IMG/VR virus record: IMGVR_UViG_3300043429_000224
Coordinates: 1-39,433 of that record
Strand: one strand, 5' to 3'
DNA: 39,433 nucleotides
Source: a virus
Below the pieces are notes generated by a model. The model searched no databases, was not told the origin of the DNA, and saw nothing but the letters and a program-made list of their open reading frames with translations. Every line of letters begins with the position of its first letter. Position 1 is the first letter of the stretch. This document shows positions 2,295-30,823 of this stretch, in pieces. The translations under genes were made by a program, and so were the position numbers.

Positions 2295-4472
2295 TTACGG
2301 AGCGGTGTAGCCCTGGAAGTTGGCCCGCACGGTGCCTGCTGCGCTCAGGTTCGCGTTCAGCGCCGTATTGGCCGTGGTGACGATTTCGGTCGGGAACGCG
2401 AACGCCACGGGCACGTTCTGCGGCAGCGTCAGACGCCAGCGTTCCGTTGCGCCATCCAGAATGATCAGGTCCACCGCCGTTCCGGTGTTGATCGCCTGCA
2501 CAGCCGTCAGGTGCCGCTTGAGGCCAGCGCCAGCCGCAGCCTGGATCGCAACCGCAGTCGTGGCGGTCAGGGCCAGCGAGGCGTTGAACCCGGCCTCAGG
2601 GATCGCGTAGGGCTTCGTCACCGGGACGCCGATCAGCGTGCCGATGGCCTGCTGCTGGCGTGCCGTCGTGCCCGCTGCGGGGTTCGCGCTGACGCCGACG
2701 ATAGACGTCAGCACCGGCTGAGGGACAGTCGTGGCGTTGTTGGCCTGTGCGCCCTGCACGTTGGCCGTCGCGCTGGTGATCGTGCCGCCAGTGATGTACA
2801 CCGGGGCAGACGCCGAGACGTCGGTGATCGGCCGCTGCGCCCACTCCACCCGCTCGCGTGCAAAGTCAAACGCGCGGATGTAGCTGACGCGCATCTCGGT
2901 GCGGCGCACCAGGCCGCCACCGCAGTTCACGGTCGTGAAGTCGGCTGGCAGTTCCATGCTGCCCGCATATGGCAGCACGAGCGTCAGGTTCGTGGTGGAG
3001 ACGTTGGCGATTTTCCACGCGCCGTCGATGCCGAGGGACGCCCCCGTTGCGATGTCGCGGCAGCCGATCAGGTCGAGCGTATCGCCGATGGTCGCGGCCG
3101 GCGCGGCCCAGGTCGCCGACCCCACCAGGAGCAGCTGACGGGTACCGTTAGCCAGCGTGGACAGCGCGGCAGACTGCACGGTCTGACCGACCGCGCCGAG
3201 CGCAGACATCAGGTTGCCGCCCTGCACCCGGGCGACATAGCCGCCGTAGGTCGTGGCCATGACAGCCGTGCCCCACACCACCGTGATCTGCGTCGCGTTG
3301 ACCACAGACGCTACAGCGGTGGCCGTGGCGAGGTTGGCAAAGTTCGTCTGGTCCCGCGTACCGTAGGCAACGATCACGTCGGCCGTGGTCAGGCCGTGCG
3401 GCCGGTCGAACGTGATGGTCGCCGTCGTGGTGCCGGTCTTGACAGCCGTCACCATCTGGCCAACCGGGACCGGCATGGAGTCGGCGTTGCGAGCCCGCAT
3501 CCGCAGCCGGTATTGCTTCGTCGGATTCGGCACCACGCTGGTACGGATCAGACGGCTGGTCGAGCCCGTGAGGACATCGATGGCCTGATCCTGTACTTGG
3601 ATGCGGTCGCTCTGGATGATGAGCTTGTACTCGGTCGTCGGCGCGAATGCGTACTGGTATGCCGAGTTGACGACCTGCACCGAGGCGGTCGTGCCGATGG
3701 TCAAGCTGTGGTTGCCCGCCACAGTTCCAGTCGGGTAGGCGTCGCCCGCTTCGCTGCGCGTGTAGAAACTCGCGTTGGTGGCCGTGGCGTTTTCCATGAT
3801 CATGGAGACGCCATCATTCGCTCCGCCCAGGCGGGGGCGATGGAAGACATAGCCACCAGTGAACGGGCCGGCAGAGACAGACGGAATGGTGCCGCCAGGT
3901 CCTGCGGTGACGGTGAACTGCGTCGGGGTAGGCACCGAGGCCACCACGAGCGAGTTGTAGTTGAACCGCGAATCGCTCACGCCAGCGATGCCGATGCACT
4001 TGCCCACGCTCAGGCCGTGCGGCACGGTCGTGTTGACCGTTAGCGTCGTCGTGGCCTGCGTGACGTTCAGGATCGGAATGTTGGAGCTGCTGATGGTGGA
4101 CGGGTCCGTGCTCACCAGTTCCAGCGAGAAGTCCTGCCCCAGCGTGCGCTGCGACATCGACATGCCGATCGCAATCTCGACGGGCATCGTCAGTTCGAGC
4201 TGGCCCTCGATGATCGTCTCGGTGCCCGCGAACAGCGAAGACTTCGACAGCACCAGATAGCTCGCCGCGGCTGCGTTGCCGTCGGCGTATGCCAGGTCGC
4301 CTTGGCCGAGAATCTGCGTGTAGCGCCCGTTGGTCGGGTCATACGTCTCGAATGCGTCTCGGGCCTTCGTGGTCACGTTGCCGGCGCTGGCAACGACCTC
4401 GGCGTAGGTGCCGTTGTTGAGATCGATGTTGCGACGGTTGACCTGATCGCGGCTCTTGATGATGTCGGCCAT
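2295..4472 (-). CDS. Large virion structural protein with repeated HGL-type beta domains, 725 aa
   Basis: A long, Thr/Ala/Val-rich beta protein without obvious enzymatic motifs lies in the head module between the small head genes and the gp4-like adaptor. Two related segments can be seen. One is near residues 145-210 (PHGLSVGKCIGIAGV). The other is near residues 320-400 (QYRLRMRARN leading to PHGLTTADVIVAYG). They look like the small beta domains often labelled 'E1 FCCH-like' in phage tail proteins. Start ATG 4472 has a GAGG Shine-Dalgarno sequence 7 nt upstream. Its size and place suggest a major accessory capsid or neck-associated fibre protein. P22 itself has no obvious counterpart here. 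The second segment is echoed in an early gene at 22318..23550. Confidence 0.75.
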   Translation of the reverse strand: MADIIKSRDQVNRRNIDLNNGTYAEVVASAGNVTTKARDAFETYDPTNGRYTQILGQGDLAYADGNAAAASYLVLSKSSLFAGTETIIEGQLELTMPVEIAIGMSMSQRTLGQDFSLELVSTDPSTISSSNIPILNVTQATTTLTVNTTVPHGLSVGKCIGIAGVSDSRFNYNSLVVASVPTPTQFTVTAGPGGTIPSVSAGPFTGGYVFHRPRLGGANDGVSMIMENATATNASFYTRSEAGDAYPTGTVAGNHSLTIGTTASVQVVNSAYQYAFAPTTEYKLIIQSDRIQVQDQAIDVLTGSTSRLIRTSVVPNPTKQYRLRMRARNADSMPVPVGQMVTAVKTGTTTATITFDRPHGLTTADVIVAYGTRDQTNFANLATATAVASVVNATQITVVWGTAVMATTYGGYVARVQGGNLMSALGAVGQTVQSAALSTLANGTRQLLLVGSATWAAPAATIGDTLDLIGCRDIATGASLGIDGAWKIANVSTTNLTLVLPYAGSMELPADFTTVNCGGGLVRRTEMRVSYIRAFDFARERVEWAQRPITDVSASAPVYITGGTITSATANVQGAQANNATTVPQPVLTSIVGVSANPAAGTTARQQQAIGTLIGVPVTKPYAIPEAGFNASLALTATTAVAIQAAAGAGLKRHLTAVQAINTGTAVDLIILDGATERWRLTLPQNVPVAFAFPTEIVTTANTALNANLSAAGTVRANFQGYTAP

Positions 4473-19514: not shown

Positions 19515-20128
19515 CCACCTACACCACCCTCAACAAAATCCGAGCACACGGCCCGTGCGCCCACGGTTGGTCTAAGCTGCTGCGGCACTTGGGCAAGACG
19601 CAGGCAGACGACGAGCCGATGGCACTGACGACGATCCTCGACAGCAACGGTCTGGACGACGCGCTGTGGTGCCTGCGCTCCTGCGACGGCATCGACCGAG
19701 AAACGCGGCTGTACGCGGTGTGGTGTGCCAGACAGGTGCAGCACCTGATGACGGACCCGCGCTCGCTGGCCGCGCTGGATGTGGCCGAGCGGCACGCTAA
19801 CGGCGAGGCGACAGACAAAGAGCTGACCGCAGCGAGGGACGCAGCGTGGGCCGCAGCGTGGGCCGCAGCGTGGGCCGCAGCGAGGGACGCAGCGTGGGCC
19901 GCAGCGAGGGCCGCAGCGGGGGCCGCAGCGAGGGACGCAGCGTGGGCCGCAGCGTGGGCCGCAGCGTGGGCCGCAGCGAGGGCCGCAGCGAGGGACGCAG
20001 CGTGGGCCGCAGCGAGGGACGCAGCGTGGGCCGCAGCGAGGGACGCAGCGTGGGACGCAGCGTGGGCCGCAGCGAGGGACGCAGCGTGGGACGCACAAGC
20101 CGCTGAATTTCGCAGGAGATTTGCATGA
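19511..20128 (+). CDS. Early protein with Ala/Trp tandem repeats, 205 aa
   Basis: Residues 1-105 are a conserved phage domain starting [20 protein letters not shown] with [14 protein letters not shown] and [20 protein letters not shown]. Residues 107-194 consist of 22 four-residue units of the types [16 protein letters not shown] and AAWD, encoded by 12-bp tandem repeats. The end AAEFRRRFA is basic. ATG 19511 overlaps the previous stop and is preceded by GGGGGAAG. Similar phage proteins with Ala/Trp/Arg repeats exist, with varying repeat number. The repeat region is predicted to be one long helix with tryptophans every fourth to eighth residue. The role is unknown. Confidence 0.8.
19829..20092 (+). 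repeat. Tandem array of 22 twelve-bp units
   Basis: Units follow GCAGCG-(T/A/G)GGG-(C/A)C with only two variable positions. I count 22 uninterrupted copies (264 bp). The repeat length is a multiple of three, so the reading frame survives copy-number change. All six frames stay open here, which explains several spurious ORFs. Confidence 0.92.
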
Positions 20129-20781
20129 CCACCGAGCACCTTGAGCAACGCACCGAAGAGTGGCTGCAGGCCCGCGTGGGCAAGGTCACGGCGAGCGGGT
20201 TTAAGCATGTCATCGACCGCAAGAAGGCAGGCAAGCGCAGCGCGGACGGTCAGAAATATCTGTGGCAACAAGTCATCGAACGCCTGACCGGCCAGCCCGC
20301 CCCTGTGGCCCGCACCGTCGCCATGCAGTGGGGCACCGATCAGGAGCCCGTCGCGCTGCAGGCATACGTCGATGCGCACCTCGTCACGGTTGAGGCCGTG
20401 GGCTTCGTGCAGCACCCGACGCTTGCCGTTGGCTGCAGCCCTGACGGGCTTGTCACCGAACGCAGCCCTGCGACCGGCTCGGCGTCCGATGGCCTCATCG
20501 AGATCAAGTGCCCCTTCAACTCTGCCAACCACCTCGAGACCTGGCTCTCCGGGATGCCCGAGGAGCATCAAGCACAGGTGCAGGGTCAGATGTGGCTAAC
20601 GGGCCGCGAGTGGTGCGATTTCGTGTCGTTCGACCCGCGCATGCCTGACGATCTGCAGCTCTACGTGCAGCGTGTTCAGCGTAATCCCAAATACATCGCG
20701 GGCCTGGAACGCGAGATCATCACGTTCCTCGGCGAGGTCGATGCCATCGTCGGCAAGCTGCAGGCGAAGACCTCTTTCTAG
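20125..20781 (+). CDS. YqaJ-family viral exonuclease (lambda Exo-like)
   Basis: This 218-residue nuclease resects double-strand ends so that an annealing protein can recombine phage DNA. The family motifs are seen in order: [19 protein letters not shown] (6-24), QWGTDQEP (E74 region), VGCSPDG (D107) and LIEIKCPF (E126, K128), ending with Q-rich [15 protein letters not shown] 20125 overlaps the stop of the repeat gene. The following gene encodes a likely RecT-type partner, the normal arrangement of a two-component recombination module. Confidence 0.92.
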
Positions 20782-20806
20782 TCACCCACCACTACAGGAG
20801 TCACAC

Positions 20807-21511
20807 ATGACCGCTCTCGTACCCGTCTCTGAAATCGAACGCATGGCCGCATCCGTCGCCAAGTCGGGCCTCTTTGGCATGAAAACCCCCGAGCAGGCAA
20901 TGGCACTCATGCTCATTGCACAGGCCGAGGGCATGCATCCGGCCAAGGCGGTGCAGGAGTTCCACATCATCAACGGCAGGCCAGCCCTCAAGGCCGACGC
21001 CATGCTGGCCCGGTTCCAGGCCGCAGGCGGGTCGGTGCGCTGGGGCACCTACACCGAGCAGGCCGTCTCGGGTGTGTTCACGCATCCGCAAGGCGGCAGC
21101 GTCGAGATTGAATGGACCTACGCGATGGCCGAACGCGCTGGGCTGACGAAAAACCCAACGTGGCGGCAGTACCCGCGCCAGATGCTGCGTGCCCGCGTGG
21201 TGTCCGAGGGCATCCGCACGGTGTTCCCTGGCGTGGTCGTCGGCGCGTACACCGAGGAGGAGGCGCAGGACATGGCCCCGCCCTCGCGCCAGCAGGTGGT
21301 CGAGATCGTGCCTGCCGCCCCCGAGTCCGAACCCGCCGACCTCCTCGCGGCCATCGACGCCGCGCAAACGGTGGACGAACTCAACGCCCTCAAGCCCCGC
21401 ATCCGCACGCTGCCCGCCGATCTCCGCGCCGAGATCACCGACGCCGCCAAGCAACGCGCCCAGCAGATCCGCGAAAACGCCACCGTGGATGCCAGCGATG
21501 ATCCGATCTGA
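20807..21511 (+). CDS. RecT-like single-strand annealing protein (putative)
   Basis: The 234-residue protein follows the exonuclease and begins MTALVPVSEIERMAASVAKS. The core segments AMALMLIAQAEGMHPAKAVQ, FHIINGRPALKADAMLARFQ and YPRQMLRARVVSEGIRTVFP (residues 30-145) are typical of a widespread phage family usually annotated as RecT-like. The C-terminal third is a flexible Pro/Ala linker followed by helices and an acidic end. ATG 20807 has CAGGAG 7 nt upstream. Partnership with the exonuclease is supported by adjacency. The exact fold class is not provable here. Confidence 0.8.
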   Translation: MTALVPVSEIERMAASVAKSGLFGMKTPEQAMALMLIAQAEGMHPAKAVQEFHIINGRPALKADAMLARFQAAGGSVRWGTYTEQAVSGVFTHPQGGSVEIEWTYAMAERAGLTKNPTWRQYPRQMLRARVVSEGIRTVFPGVVVGAYTEEEAQDMAPPSRQQVVEIVPAAPESEPADLLAAIDAAQTVDELNALKPRIRTLPADLRAEITDAAKQRAQQIRENATVDASDDPI

Positions 21512-22130: not shown

Positions 22131-22321
22131 AAATCATCGACACCATCCGCGCCTGGTTCACGCCGCCCGCCGCCTTGGTGCTGGCCGCCCGCGAGCTAGA
22201 GGACGCCAAGCGCGGCCTGCTGTCGGCGCAGTCGAGTAGGGAATATGCGGATGGCCTCGTGAGGTATTACGAGGCGAAGATTAAGCGGTTGACGGGTTAT
22301 CTGAAGGAGGCTGGGGAATGA
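22127..22321 (+). CDS. Small conserved phage protein, 64 aa
   Basis: The product begins MKIIDTIRAWFTPPAALVLA and continues with a long charged helix (ARELEDAKRGLLSAQSSREY, then EAKIKRLTGYLKEAGE). The amphipathic N-terminus may bind membrane and the rest forms a coiled coil. Homologous small helical proteins are common in betaproteobacterial phages. ATG 22127 follows CAGGAGAGCAGAGC and overlaps the previous stop. Confidence 0.7.
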   Translation: MKIIDTIRAWFTPPAALVLAARELEDAKRGLLSAQSSREYADGLVRYYEAKIKRLTGYLKEAGE

Positions 22322-23550
22322 GCACCATCACCATACCGCGAGCCCTGCTGGAGCAGGCGCTGGAGGCGTTGTGGTTTGCGAACGCGCGGGATTTTTTTGG
22401 CTCGCAGACCATTGAGAAGGCCATCGCTTCTCTCCAAGCCGCGCTGGAGCAGCAGGCCGAGCCCAAGGTGCCAACCGATTCCGAAGAGTTGGCTTATGCA
22501 GCAGGTTGGCGAGCCGCACATCATGCTTATGCAAGAGGCTGGATCGCCGCGCCGCAGCGCAATATGACGGACGAAGAGATTGCCAAGAAACTCGCCTCGA
22601 TAGATTTTGCTGCGCTTTCCAAGGCCCAAGACGAGTGCCCTGCCGTGAAGTGGGCTAAAAACGGGCTGAAACAAGAACAGAAATGTGAGTGTGGCGAGCG
22701 GGCCGCAAGCGAATGCGGCGAGCCGTGGGGGCCTGAGTGTGACCTTGGGCACAACAAAGCGTATGCGCGAAGGGCGGTTCTGACTCCTGAGCAGCAAGCA
22801 CTGCTTGACGATGCGCTAAAGCAAAAGGAGCCGAGTGCCCGGTGGGAAGACCAGCGCGTACAGGCTGTCTACGAGGTGCTGGTGTCCTTCGACCCGCCGC
22901 CGCCCGAGCAGCATTGGGAAGGGTGGACTGCACGGAGGATCGTAGACAGGCTGGCCGCGCTGGCGCAGCAGGAGCAGGAGCAGGAGCAGTACAAGCTGCG
23001 CATCAGGGCGACCAATAAGTCGCTGACGATGCCGACCGCGCAGATCGTCTCTGTCACCAAGTCTGGCACGACGACCGGCACGTTCGTGACTGAAATGCCG
23101 CACAAGCTCGTGCCCGGCGATCTGGCGGTCTACTACGGCCCCAGCGACACGGCACACGATGGGGATCAGGATCAGGAGCCGTTGTGCAAGGGCATACCCA
23201 GGCGCGGATGCAACTACCTCGCCCCGTGTGACACTGTGTGCAACAAGTGCGGCGAGATTCACCACCATCACCAGATGGTCGCTCAGTTCCAGGCCGCGCA
23301 GGAGGAGCAGGAGCCGGTGGCGTGGTACGACGGCAGGAAATTTTACGGCAGCCAAGAGGCGGCCAGCTTGGACTGCGCAGACATGGCGGCGCTGATGCCC
23401 CTCTACACCCACCCACCCCGCCGCGAGTGGCAGTCGCTGACGGAGGAGGAGATCGTCAAGTTTGCGGATGAAGTTAGCGGCGAAGAACACTCTGTTGAGG
23501 ACTTTGCCCGCGCCATCGAGCAGGCGCTGAAGGAGCGAAACAATGGATAA
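22318..23550 (+). CDS. Mosaic early protein carrying a virion-protein domain, 410 aa
   Basis: A chimera of several modules. Residues 1-45 begin TIPRALLEQALEALWFANAR. Residues 55-85 include EELAYAAGWRAAHHAYARGW. A Cys-rich piece (CECGERAASECGEPWGPEC) lies near 122-142. An AAA-free helical part ends with LAALAQQEQEQEQ. Residues 224-281 (QYKLRIRATNKSLTMPTAQI, GTTTGTF, PHKLVPGDLAVYYGP) resemble a domain of the 725-residue virion protein at residues 320-373. The end has another Cys cluster (CKGIPRRGC...CDTVCNKCGEIHHHH) and a helical tail also found in unrelated early phage proteins. ATG 22318 overlaps the previous stop. Such mosaics arise by illegitimate recombination. The function is unknown. Confidence 0.75.
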   Translation: MSTITIPRALLEQALEALWFANARDFFGSQTIEKAIASLQAALEQQAEPKVPTDSEELAYAAGWRAAHHAYARGWIAAPQRNMTDEEIAKKLASIDFAALSKAQDECPAVKWAKNGLKQEQKCECGERAASECGEPWGPECDLGHNKAYARRAVLTPEQQALLDDALKQKEPSARWEDQRVQAVYEVLVSFDPPPPEQHWEGWTARRIVDRLAALAQQEQEQEQYKLRIRATNKSLTMPTAQIVSVTKSGTTTGTFVTEMPHKLVPGDLAVYYGPSDTAHDGDQDQEPLCKGIPRRGCNYLAPCDTVCNKCGEIHHHHQMVAQFQAAQEEQEPVAWYDGRKFYGSQEAASLDCADMAALMPLYTHPPRREWQSLTEEEIVKFADEVSGEEHSVEDFARAIEQALKERNNG

Positions 23551-23935
23551 GCCCGAAGCCCTGCGGCTGGCTGATGCGCTGGATGCCGAAATCGTGCGAA
23601 CAGTGAAACTCGACGTGATGCATAACGACGCCGCCGCCGAACTGCGCCGGTTGCACGACCTAGTCGCCGCCTGTGAACCGTACTTGAAGGAGGGTGAGAC
23701 GCCTGCCGAGCGCATCGAGCGTGAGCGCGGGGACACGGAGGCCGTGTGTCGGCTGTACGCCAAGGAGCGGGAGAAGAATGTGGAGTTGCTGGAGGCGGCC
23801 AAGCAGGTGATCGCTTGGTACGAAGCAGAGGACGACCATTCCAAAGCCGACTTTTACCAACGCCTTGAGATGTGTCGCACATCGGAGGCCGCACTCCGCG
23901 CCGCCATCGCCAAAGCAGAAGGAGAACCGAAATGA
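23543..23935 (+). CDS. Coiled-coil early protein, 130 aa
   Basis: A charged, helical protein beginning MDKPEALRLADALDAEIVRT. Heptad-like sections are DAAAELRRLHDLVAACEPYL and LYAKEREKNVELLEAAKQVI. It ends AAIAKAEGEPK. It starts 8 nt inside the mosaic gene. Its terminal sequence closely resembles that of the next gene, both at the DNA and protein level, forming a shared junction. No function is known. Confidence 0.7.
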   Translation: MDKPEALRLADALDAEIVRTVKLDVMHNDAAAELRRLHDLVAACEPYLKEGETPAERIERERGDTEAVCRLYAKEREKNVELLEAAKQVIAWYEAEDDHSKADFYQRLEMCRTSEAALRAAIAKAEGEPK

Positions 23936-28158: not shown

Positions 28159-28436
28159 TTCATCATCTCCAAGGCGAGCCACGCCAGCCATCCGGGCGCA
28201 GCGGTTGCAACGGCGTCCAACAGAGAGGGCTCTCCCTCACCGCGCACGCCCTGATTGACCTCGTACAGCAGCGCGTACACGGTCGAGTGGTACGCGATGA
28301 ACGCGCCCACGTTGAACAGCATCAGCACCCAGTAGCTGACCATCGCGGCTGCCACCCAAATGACGCCGAGCGCCAGGTGCAGCCACTTGTCGGCAGGCAT
28401 CAGCCGGGTGAGGATGTCAGGGATGCGGGGGATCAT
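28155..28436 (-). CDS. Membrane protein of the lysis region, 93 aa
   Basis: The product begins MIPRIPDILTRLMPADKWLH and has two hydrophobic segments, LALGVIWVAAAMVSYWVLML (about residues 20-40) and a second weaker one at the C-terminus (VATAAPGWLAWLALEMM). ATG 28436 overlaps the tailspike stop as TAATG. It fits a second holin or antiholin. Similar proteins with the PADKWLH motif occur near lysis genes of other phages. Confidence 0.7.
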   Translation of the reverse strand: MIPRIPDILTRLMPADKWLHLALGVIWVAAAMVSYWVLMLFNVGAFIAYHSTVYALLYEVNQGVRGEGEPSLLDAVATAAPGWLAWLALEMMK

Positions 28437-30823
28437 TACTTCAGCACCCCGGCCGTCTGCAGGTCAGCGATCAGCGTGCCGAGCACTGCCGCGACCTGTG
28501 CCGTTGTGTCGGCCGACACGTTCAGCGCCCGGTCTGTGCTTGGGTTGGTCACCGTGTAGGCATTTGACAACTGCACCACGCCAAACGGCACCCAGGTTCC
28601 AGGCGTGCCTGACACAAGGCAGACCCAGCCGAGGTTCCCGTTGGCCGCAGGTGTCTGCAGCCATACGCGGTCGCCCTGAATCCAGGTTCCAGCAGCAGGG
28701 ACGGCGCTGCCGAAGAAATCGCGCCATGTCGTACCGCGCCCCGGCACGGCGGTGGCCAGCCCGCTGTATGCATTCGGCCCAGCTGCGGCCTCGGAAATGT
28801 TGCGCAGCAGGGACTTGAGCGGGTAGACGTTGGGCGTGTCGTTCCACAGCACGATGCCCGCGCTCTCGGCACGCTGGATCACGTTGTGGTCGATGACGAA
28901 CTGCCGCTTGTCCCCGCTGGCAAGCTGGATGCCGTAGAACATCTTCGTCTGTGTGGACTCACCGACAATGGTGTTGTTCAAGATGTACGAACCACCGTTG
29001 CCGTCAATCAGCATGCCCGAGCTTCGACCACTGGTGTCGATTCCGGCCGCGCCGCAATTGAAGAGCGAGTTGCTTCGGATGAAAGTCGGCTTCAGCGGAG
29101 CGAACGCCGAGATGCCGTTCTCCTGCACGTTGCTGATGCTGTTGTTGTCGATGTTGACGTTGTACAGGTACAGCCCGGAGAACCCAATGCGCGACACGGT
29201 ATCGACAACGTTGTCGGACACAACGCCGTTCTTGACGTAGCGCACGCTGATGCCGTCTTGCGTCACGGTGCGCACCGTGTTGCCGACGATGGTGAAGTTC
29301 ACCCCGTAGACCGGCTTCGTCACCGCGCCGCCGCTGCTGTACGCGCTCCAGCCCGTCGTATTCAGCACTGTGTCGGCGTAGGTGTTGACGGTGAACGTAG
29401 TGGACAGCGGGGTTGTGGCGACGACGAACGTGTCATTGACGACGTTGCCGACCGCGCTTGCACCATTGACCATCCCGACAACGCCGCTGATGGTGATGAT
29501 GTCACCAGCCGTCAGACCGTGCGCCGCCGCCGTGGTGAACACGGCTGGATTGGCTGCGGTGATGCCGGTGATTGTCGCGACAGTGTTCTGCACCGAGTTC
29601 AGGCAGACGATGCCGTCGCCGTTCGTGGTCGGCTCGGTGCCGACGTTCTGCACCACGTTGCCGGTAATCGTGACGTCGCTGGGAATCGTGGTGATGTCGT
29701 CGTACCACTGCACCTTGATGCCGTTGCTGCAGCAGTTGGTCACCGTGTTGTTGGCGATGGCGATGCGGCGCACACCCGAGTCGATGTACATCCCATGCTC
29801 GACCAGCGTGTTGAGGATGGTGTTTCCGCTCACCACGACATCGGTGCATTGCTGGCCGATGATGAGCCCTTGCGCGGCGTCTCGGATGATGTTGTTGCTG
29901 ACCACAACACCCGTGCTGCTGACGATGGTCACGCCCGTGCAGTTGCGGTTGCCTGCGGACGGCACGCCCAACACTGCCGCACCTGGGCCACTGACAAAGT
30001 TCTCAACGAACTCGATGCTGTTGCCACCGCTGGAGACCATCAGCGCCGAGTAACAGAACCCTGTGAATACGTTGTTGCGCACCGACAGCCTGGCCGCCGA
30101 AGTGGCCCACACGCAGATGGCAAGCGACACCGGAGTGTTGACGAACGGGCTTTCGGCGAGGCCGATGAATCTTCCTCCGTGGATCGACACGCGGATGGTG
30201 TTGCGAGCGTCCCACATGGGCGTCTGGTAGGCCGTCTGCGTGACGGTCGCGCCACCGAAGACCAGATGCGAATCGTTTTGCAGGACGATTGATCCGCTGA
30301 TCTTGTAGCTGTTGTTCGCGCCTCCGAAGTAGACGTTCTTCGCTGCCGTCGTGGCCCGCTGGAGGGCGAGCGTGTCGTCGGCCACACCGTCTCCGACTGC
30401 GCCGAAGTCCTTGACATGCACGAAGTCGCGCAACTTGTCCTGCGCGGTGCGCGGTTGAGCCCCGGTGCCCGCCTGCAAGAACGCGACCTGCGAGGAGTCC
30501 ACACCGCTGATCACGACTTCGCTGAACCGATCCGTTGCGGCCGGCGCGCTGTAGACCAACGAGCCCTTGGCGTCCTGCACCGTGATCGAGAAGTCGCTGT
30601 TGACGTACAGCCTCCCAGGCGTGCCGCTGTTGGCCGGGTAACCATTGATCGTGCGAACTGGCTGGGCGGCGGGTTGCGTGAGCGCCGCATCCCAGAACAC
30701 CGCAATCTGGTTCGTGATCGGGTTCAGGTTTGCCGTGCCGATCCAGACGTAGCCGTTCTCCAGCGGACTGCCGTCACGGTCGCTGAACGTCGGGAACGGC
30801 GGGGAGATGGAGAGGGTGGTCAT
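28436..30823 (-). CDS. Tailspike with P22-type head-binding domain and beta-helix, 795 aa
   Basis: Residues 1-110 resemble the P22 tailspike N-terminal virion-binding domain (SDRDGSPLENGYVWIGTANL, then VFWDAALTQPAAQPVRTING and PANSGTPGRLYVNSDFSI). A linker leads to VKDFGAVGDGVADD (137-150), the start of a pectate-lyase-type right-handed beta-helix. Its rungs have N-rich turns (VVSNNIIRDAAQGL, VVSGNTILNT) through about residue 690. An HGL-type domain (AAHGLTAGDIITISG) is inserted near residues 425-440. The C-terminal 100 residues form a trimerising beta domain. The protein binds and probably cleaves surface polysaccharide. The catalytic residues cannot be placed by eye. Confidence 0.9.
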   Translation of the reverse strand: MTTLSISPPFPTFSDRDGSPLENGYVWIGTANLNPITNQIAVFWDAALTQPAAQPVRTINGYPANSGTPGRLYVNSDFSITVQDAKGSLVYSAPAATDRFSEVVISGVDSSQVAFLQAGTGAQPRTAQDKLRDFVHVKDFGAVGDGVADDTLALQRATTAAKNVYFGGANNSYKISGSIVLQNDSHLVFGGATVTQTAYQTPMWDARNTIRVSIHGGRFIGLAESPFVNTPVSLAICVWATSAARLSVRNNVFTGFCYSALMVSSGGNSIEFVENFVSGPGAAVLGVPSAGNRNCTGVTIVSSTGVVVSNNIIRDAAQGLIIGQQCTDVVVSGNTILNTLVEHGMYIDSGVRRIAIANNTVTNCCSNGIKVQWYDDITTIPSDVTITGNVVQNVGTEPTTNGDGIVCLNSVQNTVATITGITAANPAVFTTAAAHGLTAGDIITISGVVGMVNGASAVGNVVNDTFVVATTPLSTTFTVNTYADTVLNTTGWSAYSSGGAVTKPVYGVNFTIVGNTVRTVTQDGISVRYVKNGVVSDNVVDTVSRIGFSGLYLYNVNIDNNSISNVQENGISAFAPLKPTFIRSNSLFNCGAAGIDTSGRSSGMLIDGNGGSYILNNTIVGESTQTKMFYGIQLASGDKRQFVIDHNVIQRAESAGIVLWNDTPNVYPLKSLLRNISEAAAGPNAYSGLATAVPGRGTTWRDFFGSAVPAAGTWIQGDRVWLQTPAANGNLGWVCLVSGTPGTWVPFGVVQLSNAYTVTNPSTDRALNVSADTTAQVAAVLGTLIADLQTAGVLK

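Follow-up and report, generated by a model that had tools for sequence, protein, structure and literature searches.

Boundary or linker sequences, short conserved stretches of DNA that flank exchangeable units, can serve as exchange points in phage genomes. The gene described here departs from that arrangement in one respect: its conserved stretches are coding linkers inside a single gene and do not lie between genes.

Two published systems come closest. In the available part of the study by De Paepe et al. (2014; PMC3945230), Rad52-like phage recombinases are reported to work with homology that is short and diverged, and exchange of 100-bp intragenic pieces is reported to be frequent. As in that account, a RecT-type recombinase is encoded nearby in our case, and the anchors that border the family's cassettes share homology. 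Unlike that account, the capture of a virion sequence by an early gene would have occurred almost without shared sequence at the left edge, which suggests illegitimate joining, a process thought rarer there; our account, moreover, is a computational one. Unrelated phage proteins that share a homologous fragment, and modular proteins that diversify by recombination, are also described in the available part of Smug et al. (2023; PMC10684548). The emphasis in that part falls on homologous ECOD domains, tail fibres and endolysins, with sequence mosaicism treated as well, whereas the piece shared here is half a domain and resides in an uncharacterised early protein.

The window, by which we mean the whole stretch of 39,433 nucleotides analysed (IMG/VR record IMGVR_UViG_3300043429_000224), contains two open reading frames that share a short segment. 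An ORF check of the window found both intact and carrying the motifs quoted in the original prediction: a 410-residue protein (window:22318-23550:+), presumably early judging from its place, and a 725-residue virion protein, P0001 (window:2295-4472:-). The early gene begins about 0.8 kb downstream of a gene for a RecT-like annealing protein, which is itself preceded by a YqaJ/RecE-like exonuclease gene. The features are as follows.

22318..23550, + strand: mosaic early gene, 410 aa, an intact ORF; its module family is found in 51 distinct ORFs.
22318..22452, + strand: N-terminal cap (ALEALW..AIASLQAALEQ), with the same layout in relatives.
22855..22965, + strand: module RVQAVYEVL..HWEGWTARRIVDRLAALA, from the translation; no relative in a scan of viral contigs with residues 168-223.
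22966..22989, + strand: (GAGCAG)n linker QQEQEQEQ, the left edge of the insert, made of direct repeats; L103 has this linker ahead of EPVAW.
22990..23157, + strand: insert, most likely virion-derived, residues 225-280 (profile E 4.2e-21; BLASTP; 23036-23157 identical in L091).
23158..23181, + strand: right linker DGDQDQEP, from the alignment with L091.
23185..23280, + strand: Cys/His module CKGIPRRGCNYLAPCDTVCNKCGEIHHHHQMV, from residue identity in seven insert-free contigs and L139/L091.
23299..23325, + strand: anchor QEEQEPVAW, conserved at the codon level.
23326..23397, + strand: exchangeable interior module; a different module occupies this place in L091.
23398..23454, + strand: anchor PLYTHPPRREWQSLTEEEI, from blastn identity and codon identity above that of recT in 63 of 66 pairs.
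2295..4472, - strand: virion protein P0001, 725 aa, with a modelled jelly-roll core and small beta regions (pLDDT 78; Z 18.7 to 3d6e_B).
3351..3515, - strand: counterpart of the insert, P0001 residues 320-374 (BLASTP; profile).
3228..3350, - strand: rest of the small beta region, residues 375-415, absent from the early gene (modelled strands 381-392, 395-399, 405-409 and 412-415).
20125..20781, + strand: YqaJ/RecE-like exonuclease (Pfam PF09588, E 4.9e-25; phrog_149).
20672..21511, + strand: RecT-like annealing protein, ORF as listed with a provisional start (phrog_561, E 2.2e-30).

The similarity between the early protein and the P0001 family is real homology. Residues 224-280 of the early protein (window 22987-23157) are homologous to P0001 residues 320-374 and slightly further; Q224 belongs either to the linker or to the insert, and the similarity past residue 278 is weak. 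In a pairwise BLASTP comparison, early residues 210-277 align with P0001 residues 306-374 at 39% identity (E 9e-7). The Smith-Waterman score of the two proteins is 123, against a maximum of 64 and a mean of 35.8 for shuffled sequences (0 of 2000 at 123) and 46 for a reversed-protein control. A profile of the virion segment was built from 44 distinct virion ORFs chosen for spanning it, the window's own included. Run against the early protein alone, it gave a single match, at residues 220-278 (E 4.2e-21), and none elsewhere in the protein; among the 15,659 six-frame ORFs of the loci, a virion profile of the same segment matched the early protein at E 4.1e-17. The match ends at the well-kept RDQTNF loop of the virion proteins. 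The alignment drawn in the original prediction is thus borne out by both pairwise and profile comparison. The prediction had also described the flanks of the early protein as unrelated and the DNA as diverged; both descriptions hold, the profile match being confined to the segment and the insert being 57% identical in codon register to the window's virion gene. For annotators there is a warning here: a virion profile match on this early protein does not make it a structural protein.

What part of the virion protein does the segment represent? The original prediction called it a domain, which proved too generous: in the P0001 model it amounts to one strand plus roughly the first half of a small beta domain. 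That model has a mean pLDDT of 78.1 and a pTM of 0.67 (alignment of 27 sequences). Its core resembles the concanavalin-like jelly rolls of GH16 glucanases and L-type lectins; the best match in a structure search was 3d6e_B (Z 18.7, 2.6 A, 179 residues), and uncharacterised viral proteins were matched as well. From the GH16 and L-type lectin folds we make no catalytic claim. A distant relative of P0001 is annotated as a virion structural protein, and P0001 itself is possibly a sugar-binding virion protein, as predicted from the model. In the model its jelly roll is broken in two places, at about 143-211 and 336-415, by small beta regions of the PHGL type.

Strands in this part of P0001 are modelled at residues 320-329, 336-346, 350-355, 366-370, 381-392, 395-399, 405-409 and 412-415. 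Judging from this list, 320-329 would be a core strand, and a small inserted domain would take up 336-415. The insert takes in strand 320-329 and, of the later strands, no more than the first three; strands 381-415 and the RDQTNF loop have no counterpart in the early protein. The model of the early protein, made with virion segments given in the alignment, reaches a pTM of 0.24 and a mean pLDDT of 59.7. It contains no jelly-roll core, of which the profile match takes in one strand before the small region. The insert is modelled as a two-strand hairpin only (243-249 and 253-258), with a pLDDT of about 80 over residues 241-270; residues 222-233 fall below 50 and the first strand is unformed. On these models the insert is a truncated piece, an incomplete domain.

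Where did this piece come from? Several phages carry a virion segment closer to the insert than does the window, whose own copy is 45% identical in amino acids. The segment of L057 is 65% identical over 54 residues, that of L046 58% over 57 residues, and that of L140 62% in amino acids and 66% in DNA (in codon register), the best DNA match. A quick tree of the segment, suggestive only with its 55 columns, places the insert beside L140 (support 0.79), among the copies of other phages and apart from the window's own. In third-position GC the insert (0.875, 56 codons only) stands nearer to the virion gene (0.855) than to the early gene (0.744). Because other phages hold closer copies, and in view of the tree and the third-position GC, transfer most likely ran from virion gene to early gene with another phage as the donor, the source that the original prediction had proposed. 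An intragenomic copy of the window's virion gene was rejected: its 57% nucleotide and 45% amino acid identity lie below those of several other phages. The locus is a clean case of a phage protein acquiring part of an unrelated structural gene, and the gene family in which this happened seems made for exchanging modules.

The same comparisons bear on whether small beta motifs might have converged with no common descent. A second PHGL-like stretch in P0001, near residues 143-211, gives a weak self-match, as convergence might lead one to expect. However, neither the 65% identity to L057 over 54 residues nor the 66% DNA identity to L140 sits well with it, and the match runs collinearly through a strand of one region and half of the neighbouring one. 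We consider the probability of convergence negligible.

The early gene belongs to a family of mosaic genes. Collapsing identical sequences and taking out, by hand, one virion ORF (L048; 52 to 51) brought the 68 early ORF records that we gathered down to 51 distinct ORFs. In the family layout the cap (LREAAQQALEALE..ALRAALAQ) is followed by a Gln/Glu linker and EPVAW; a variable interior then leads to PLYTHPPRREWQSLTEEEI, after which come a variable tail and the KEKN end. The number and length of the modules vary greatly. For the 36 of 51 ORFs divisible into interior and tail, we asked what becomes of one part when the other is shared. Eight inter-locus pairs share an interior or a tail at 80% identity or above, and in every one of them the remaining part is different (13-44% identity); one module (L095, L096, L097) accounts for three of these pairs. 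Three groups of identical ORFs from different contigs (L108/L109/L110, L120/L122/L123 and L112/L113), which share both parts, had been collapsed before the count. This reassortment upholds the earlier description of the gene as a mosaic. At several loci (L104, L118, L130, L101, L116 and L097) family members occur next to one another in twos or threes.

The boundaries between modules are conserved as DNA. Within the anchors, codon agreement at identical residues lies for the most part at 0.75-1.0, with some lower values (0.47 at one Leu). The loci were found through amino acid octamers in the boundaries, a choice biased towards conserved residues but not towards conserved codons. Just outside the anchors, codon agreement is about 0.3-0.6, residues agreeing there only by chance. 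The comparison with recT used those loci, 12 out of 15, that have a recT match, and the first early ORF of each; codon identity at identical residues of the PPRREW boundary exceeds that of recT in 63 of 66 pairs, and recT is equal or higher in three. Short blastn matches confined to the PLYTHPPRREWQSLTEEEI boundary show about 88-98% nucleotide identity, against about 67-78% for longer matches that extend into the tail. The coding sequence of this boundary (window 23398-23454; L091-L138) is codon-conserved across phages with differing adjacent modules. Codon-conserved linkers with changing interiors offer a natural test case of how phage recombinases make new proteins.

Is the junction itself genuine? 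The insert was found in a second contig, IMGVR_UViG_3300043425_000206 (L091/L139), which opens partway through the insert and runs on into the Cys/His module. Its first 126 nucleotides are identical to the window, and about 122 of these (23036-23157) belong to the insert. The right linker that follows is 6 nucleotides shorter and altered, 29 of the 32 residues of the Cys/His module are the same, and a different module comes next, ahead of the shared PPRREW boundary. Recent sharing and constraint would both fit the identity within the insert, and its in-frame openness could mean selection. For the left junction there is a single observation, since L091 starts within the insert. The window being an IMG/VR-type virus record, one might suspect an assembly chimera of two metagenomic phages. 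Against this, the right junction is present independently in L091, with another downstream module and a 6-nucleotide difference in the linker, and the insert is joined in frame; we judge a chimera extremely unlikely.

The insert is far from general among the members collected. It is present in two of the 51 distinct early ORFs, a proportion that does not stand for population frequency, the set having been collected with queries from the C-terminal half of the window's protein; virion counterparts of the segment are common. Counting the second carrier of the insert, eight contigs besides the window have the Cys/His module. In the other seven (L092, L093, L094, L095, L096, L097 and L088) it lacks the insert, stands directly behind a Gln-, Pro-, Ala- or Glu-rich linker and has 28-32 of its 32 residues the same. 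The module looks like a small, putative metal-binding unit; over this stretch the window's protein has no family match. For an empty site of the N-terminal half, the scan of viral contigs with residues 168-223 found no relative.

Since its capture the insert appears to have drifted. At 11 of 56 aligned columns, one of which is a deletion, its state is absent from all 33 non-redundant virion segments compared (reduced from 44; L017 and L037 were left out of the fragment references, their segment not being found as a single stretch). Left out in turn, each of the 31 ingroup virion segments showed 0-6 novel states, and two distant outgroup segments 11 and 17. L041 and L056, equally distant by best identity (0.64 and 0.62; insert 0.61), have five and four. 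Nine of the 11 novel columns lie in the second, hairpin half of the insert and two in the first. This excess fits relaxed constraint after capture; an unsampled virion lineage with the insert's residues could be an alternative source of them and would weaken the argument.

We consider it likely, taking the evidence together, that a truncated virion fragment was captured by recombination as one more cassette, probably a neutral one. The early gene would be a member of a 'cassette' family, in which Gln/Glu/Pro-rich linkers separate short modules unrelated to one another; phages would exchange these modules by recombining at linkers and boundaries conserved as DNA, probably aided by the phage's own RecE/RecT-type pair. 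In one event, about 168 nucleotides of another phage's virion gene would have been joined in frame behind the (GAGCAG)n linker. The captured piece would since have been carried as a cassette beside the Cys/His module, its sequence drifting, most likely without a specific role beyond keeping the frame open. Both the part played by the recombinase and the neutrality of the insert we infer. At the left junction only about 5 nucleotides (AGCAG) are common to some virion genes, and the nearest, that of L140, lacks them. With so little homology the original capture is not explained by the anchors, and the first joining of virion sequence to linker may have been illegitimate. Anchored exchange could account for the cassettes, the insert included, now moving between phages.

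A bolder version would make the early gene a dedicated recombination platform and the insert a recent recruit, putatively active against other phages or host defences. If so, the conserved linkers would be exchange anchors by which new early proteins are constantly assembled, and pieces of any gene, even a structural one, could be recruited as working modules. We think this quite unlikely.

Does the insert act on virions? The original prediction had offered recombination debris or a decoy, and debris is favoured because the piece is truncated, has lost one codon and has 11 states unseen in the 33 virion segments. A full-domain decoy is disfavoured by truncation, drift and the early-protein model. 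A lesser form, a putative decoy or dominant-negative, would have the hairpin or a 320-329-like strand pair with P0001-family proteins and so interfere with a rival or superinfecting phage at assembly or ejection. The donor being another phage, the hairpin modelled at a pLDDT of about 80 over residues 241-270 and a first half still near the virion family (2 of the 11 novel columns) all suit this proposal. Yet only half the domain is there, with the RDQTNF loop lost; residues 222-233 stay below a pLDDT of 50 and form no strand, despite the virion segments in the alignment; one codon is missing and nine novel residues fall in the hairpin half; and two of the 51 collected members are carriers. Such a role seems very unlikely, and no feature of the sequence calls for it.

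The insert might instead serve as a spacer or stability element, in which any soluble in-frame sequence would do and selection would act on length or openness, not on the sequence itself. The poorly packed model (pTM 0.24) and the highly variable number and length of modules in the family would accommodate this, but members without such a spacer are common and the Cys/His module sits directly behind a linker in seven contigs. We regard a spacer function as unlikely. The simplest reading remains that of a passenger sequence: half a domain, drifted, among loosely packed modules.

The early family is scarcely present in named phage records, and among the literature matches listed there was no description of it or of such an insert. 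At E <=0.01 the window's early protein matched no family in Pfam, PHROGs, NCBIfam or PADLOC; phrog_5434 was a weak match (E 0.087). Across the 51 ORFs, phrog_60, of unknown function, was matched by eight members at E <=0.01 (best 7.8e-5, over a short part of the 461-position profile), the window's protein not among them, and phrog_660, also of unknown function, by four. The family may therefore be related to the unnamed PHROGs entry phrog_60. Single weak matches in the 51-ORF scans, such as those to JetA, EspF, DUF6468 and RlmL_1st, were treated as chance. Against isolate phages, the whole early protein matched only MW202484, at the Cys/His module. The insert alone matched only Arthrobacter phage Atuin (E 0.2), where the gene in question is a match for P0001 too. 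A first scan of bacterial genome contigs for the insert and Cys/His module found no relative (it used six exact octamers, which diverged copies could escape). Four relatives of the early family do occur in genome contigs, two labelled beta proteobacterium, one Burkholderiales bacterium and one Methylobacter; the host is presumably a beta proteobacterium.

One member of the family, L117:3515-4318, has a Lar-type restriction-alleviation module (PF14354) fused inside it (Pfam E 1.8e-4, PHROGs E 5.4e-5, NCBIfam E 0.0012), which suggests a second recognisable capture; the window's protein has no such module. The gene after the early gene (window 23543-23935; MDKPEALRLADALD..AAAELRRLH) has partial DNA matches in L102 and L121 and may belong to another shuffled early family. 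Elsewhere in the window, 28436-30823 on the - strand encodes a right-handed beta-helix tail spike (Beta_helix, E 1.1e-20).
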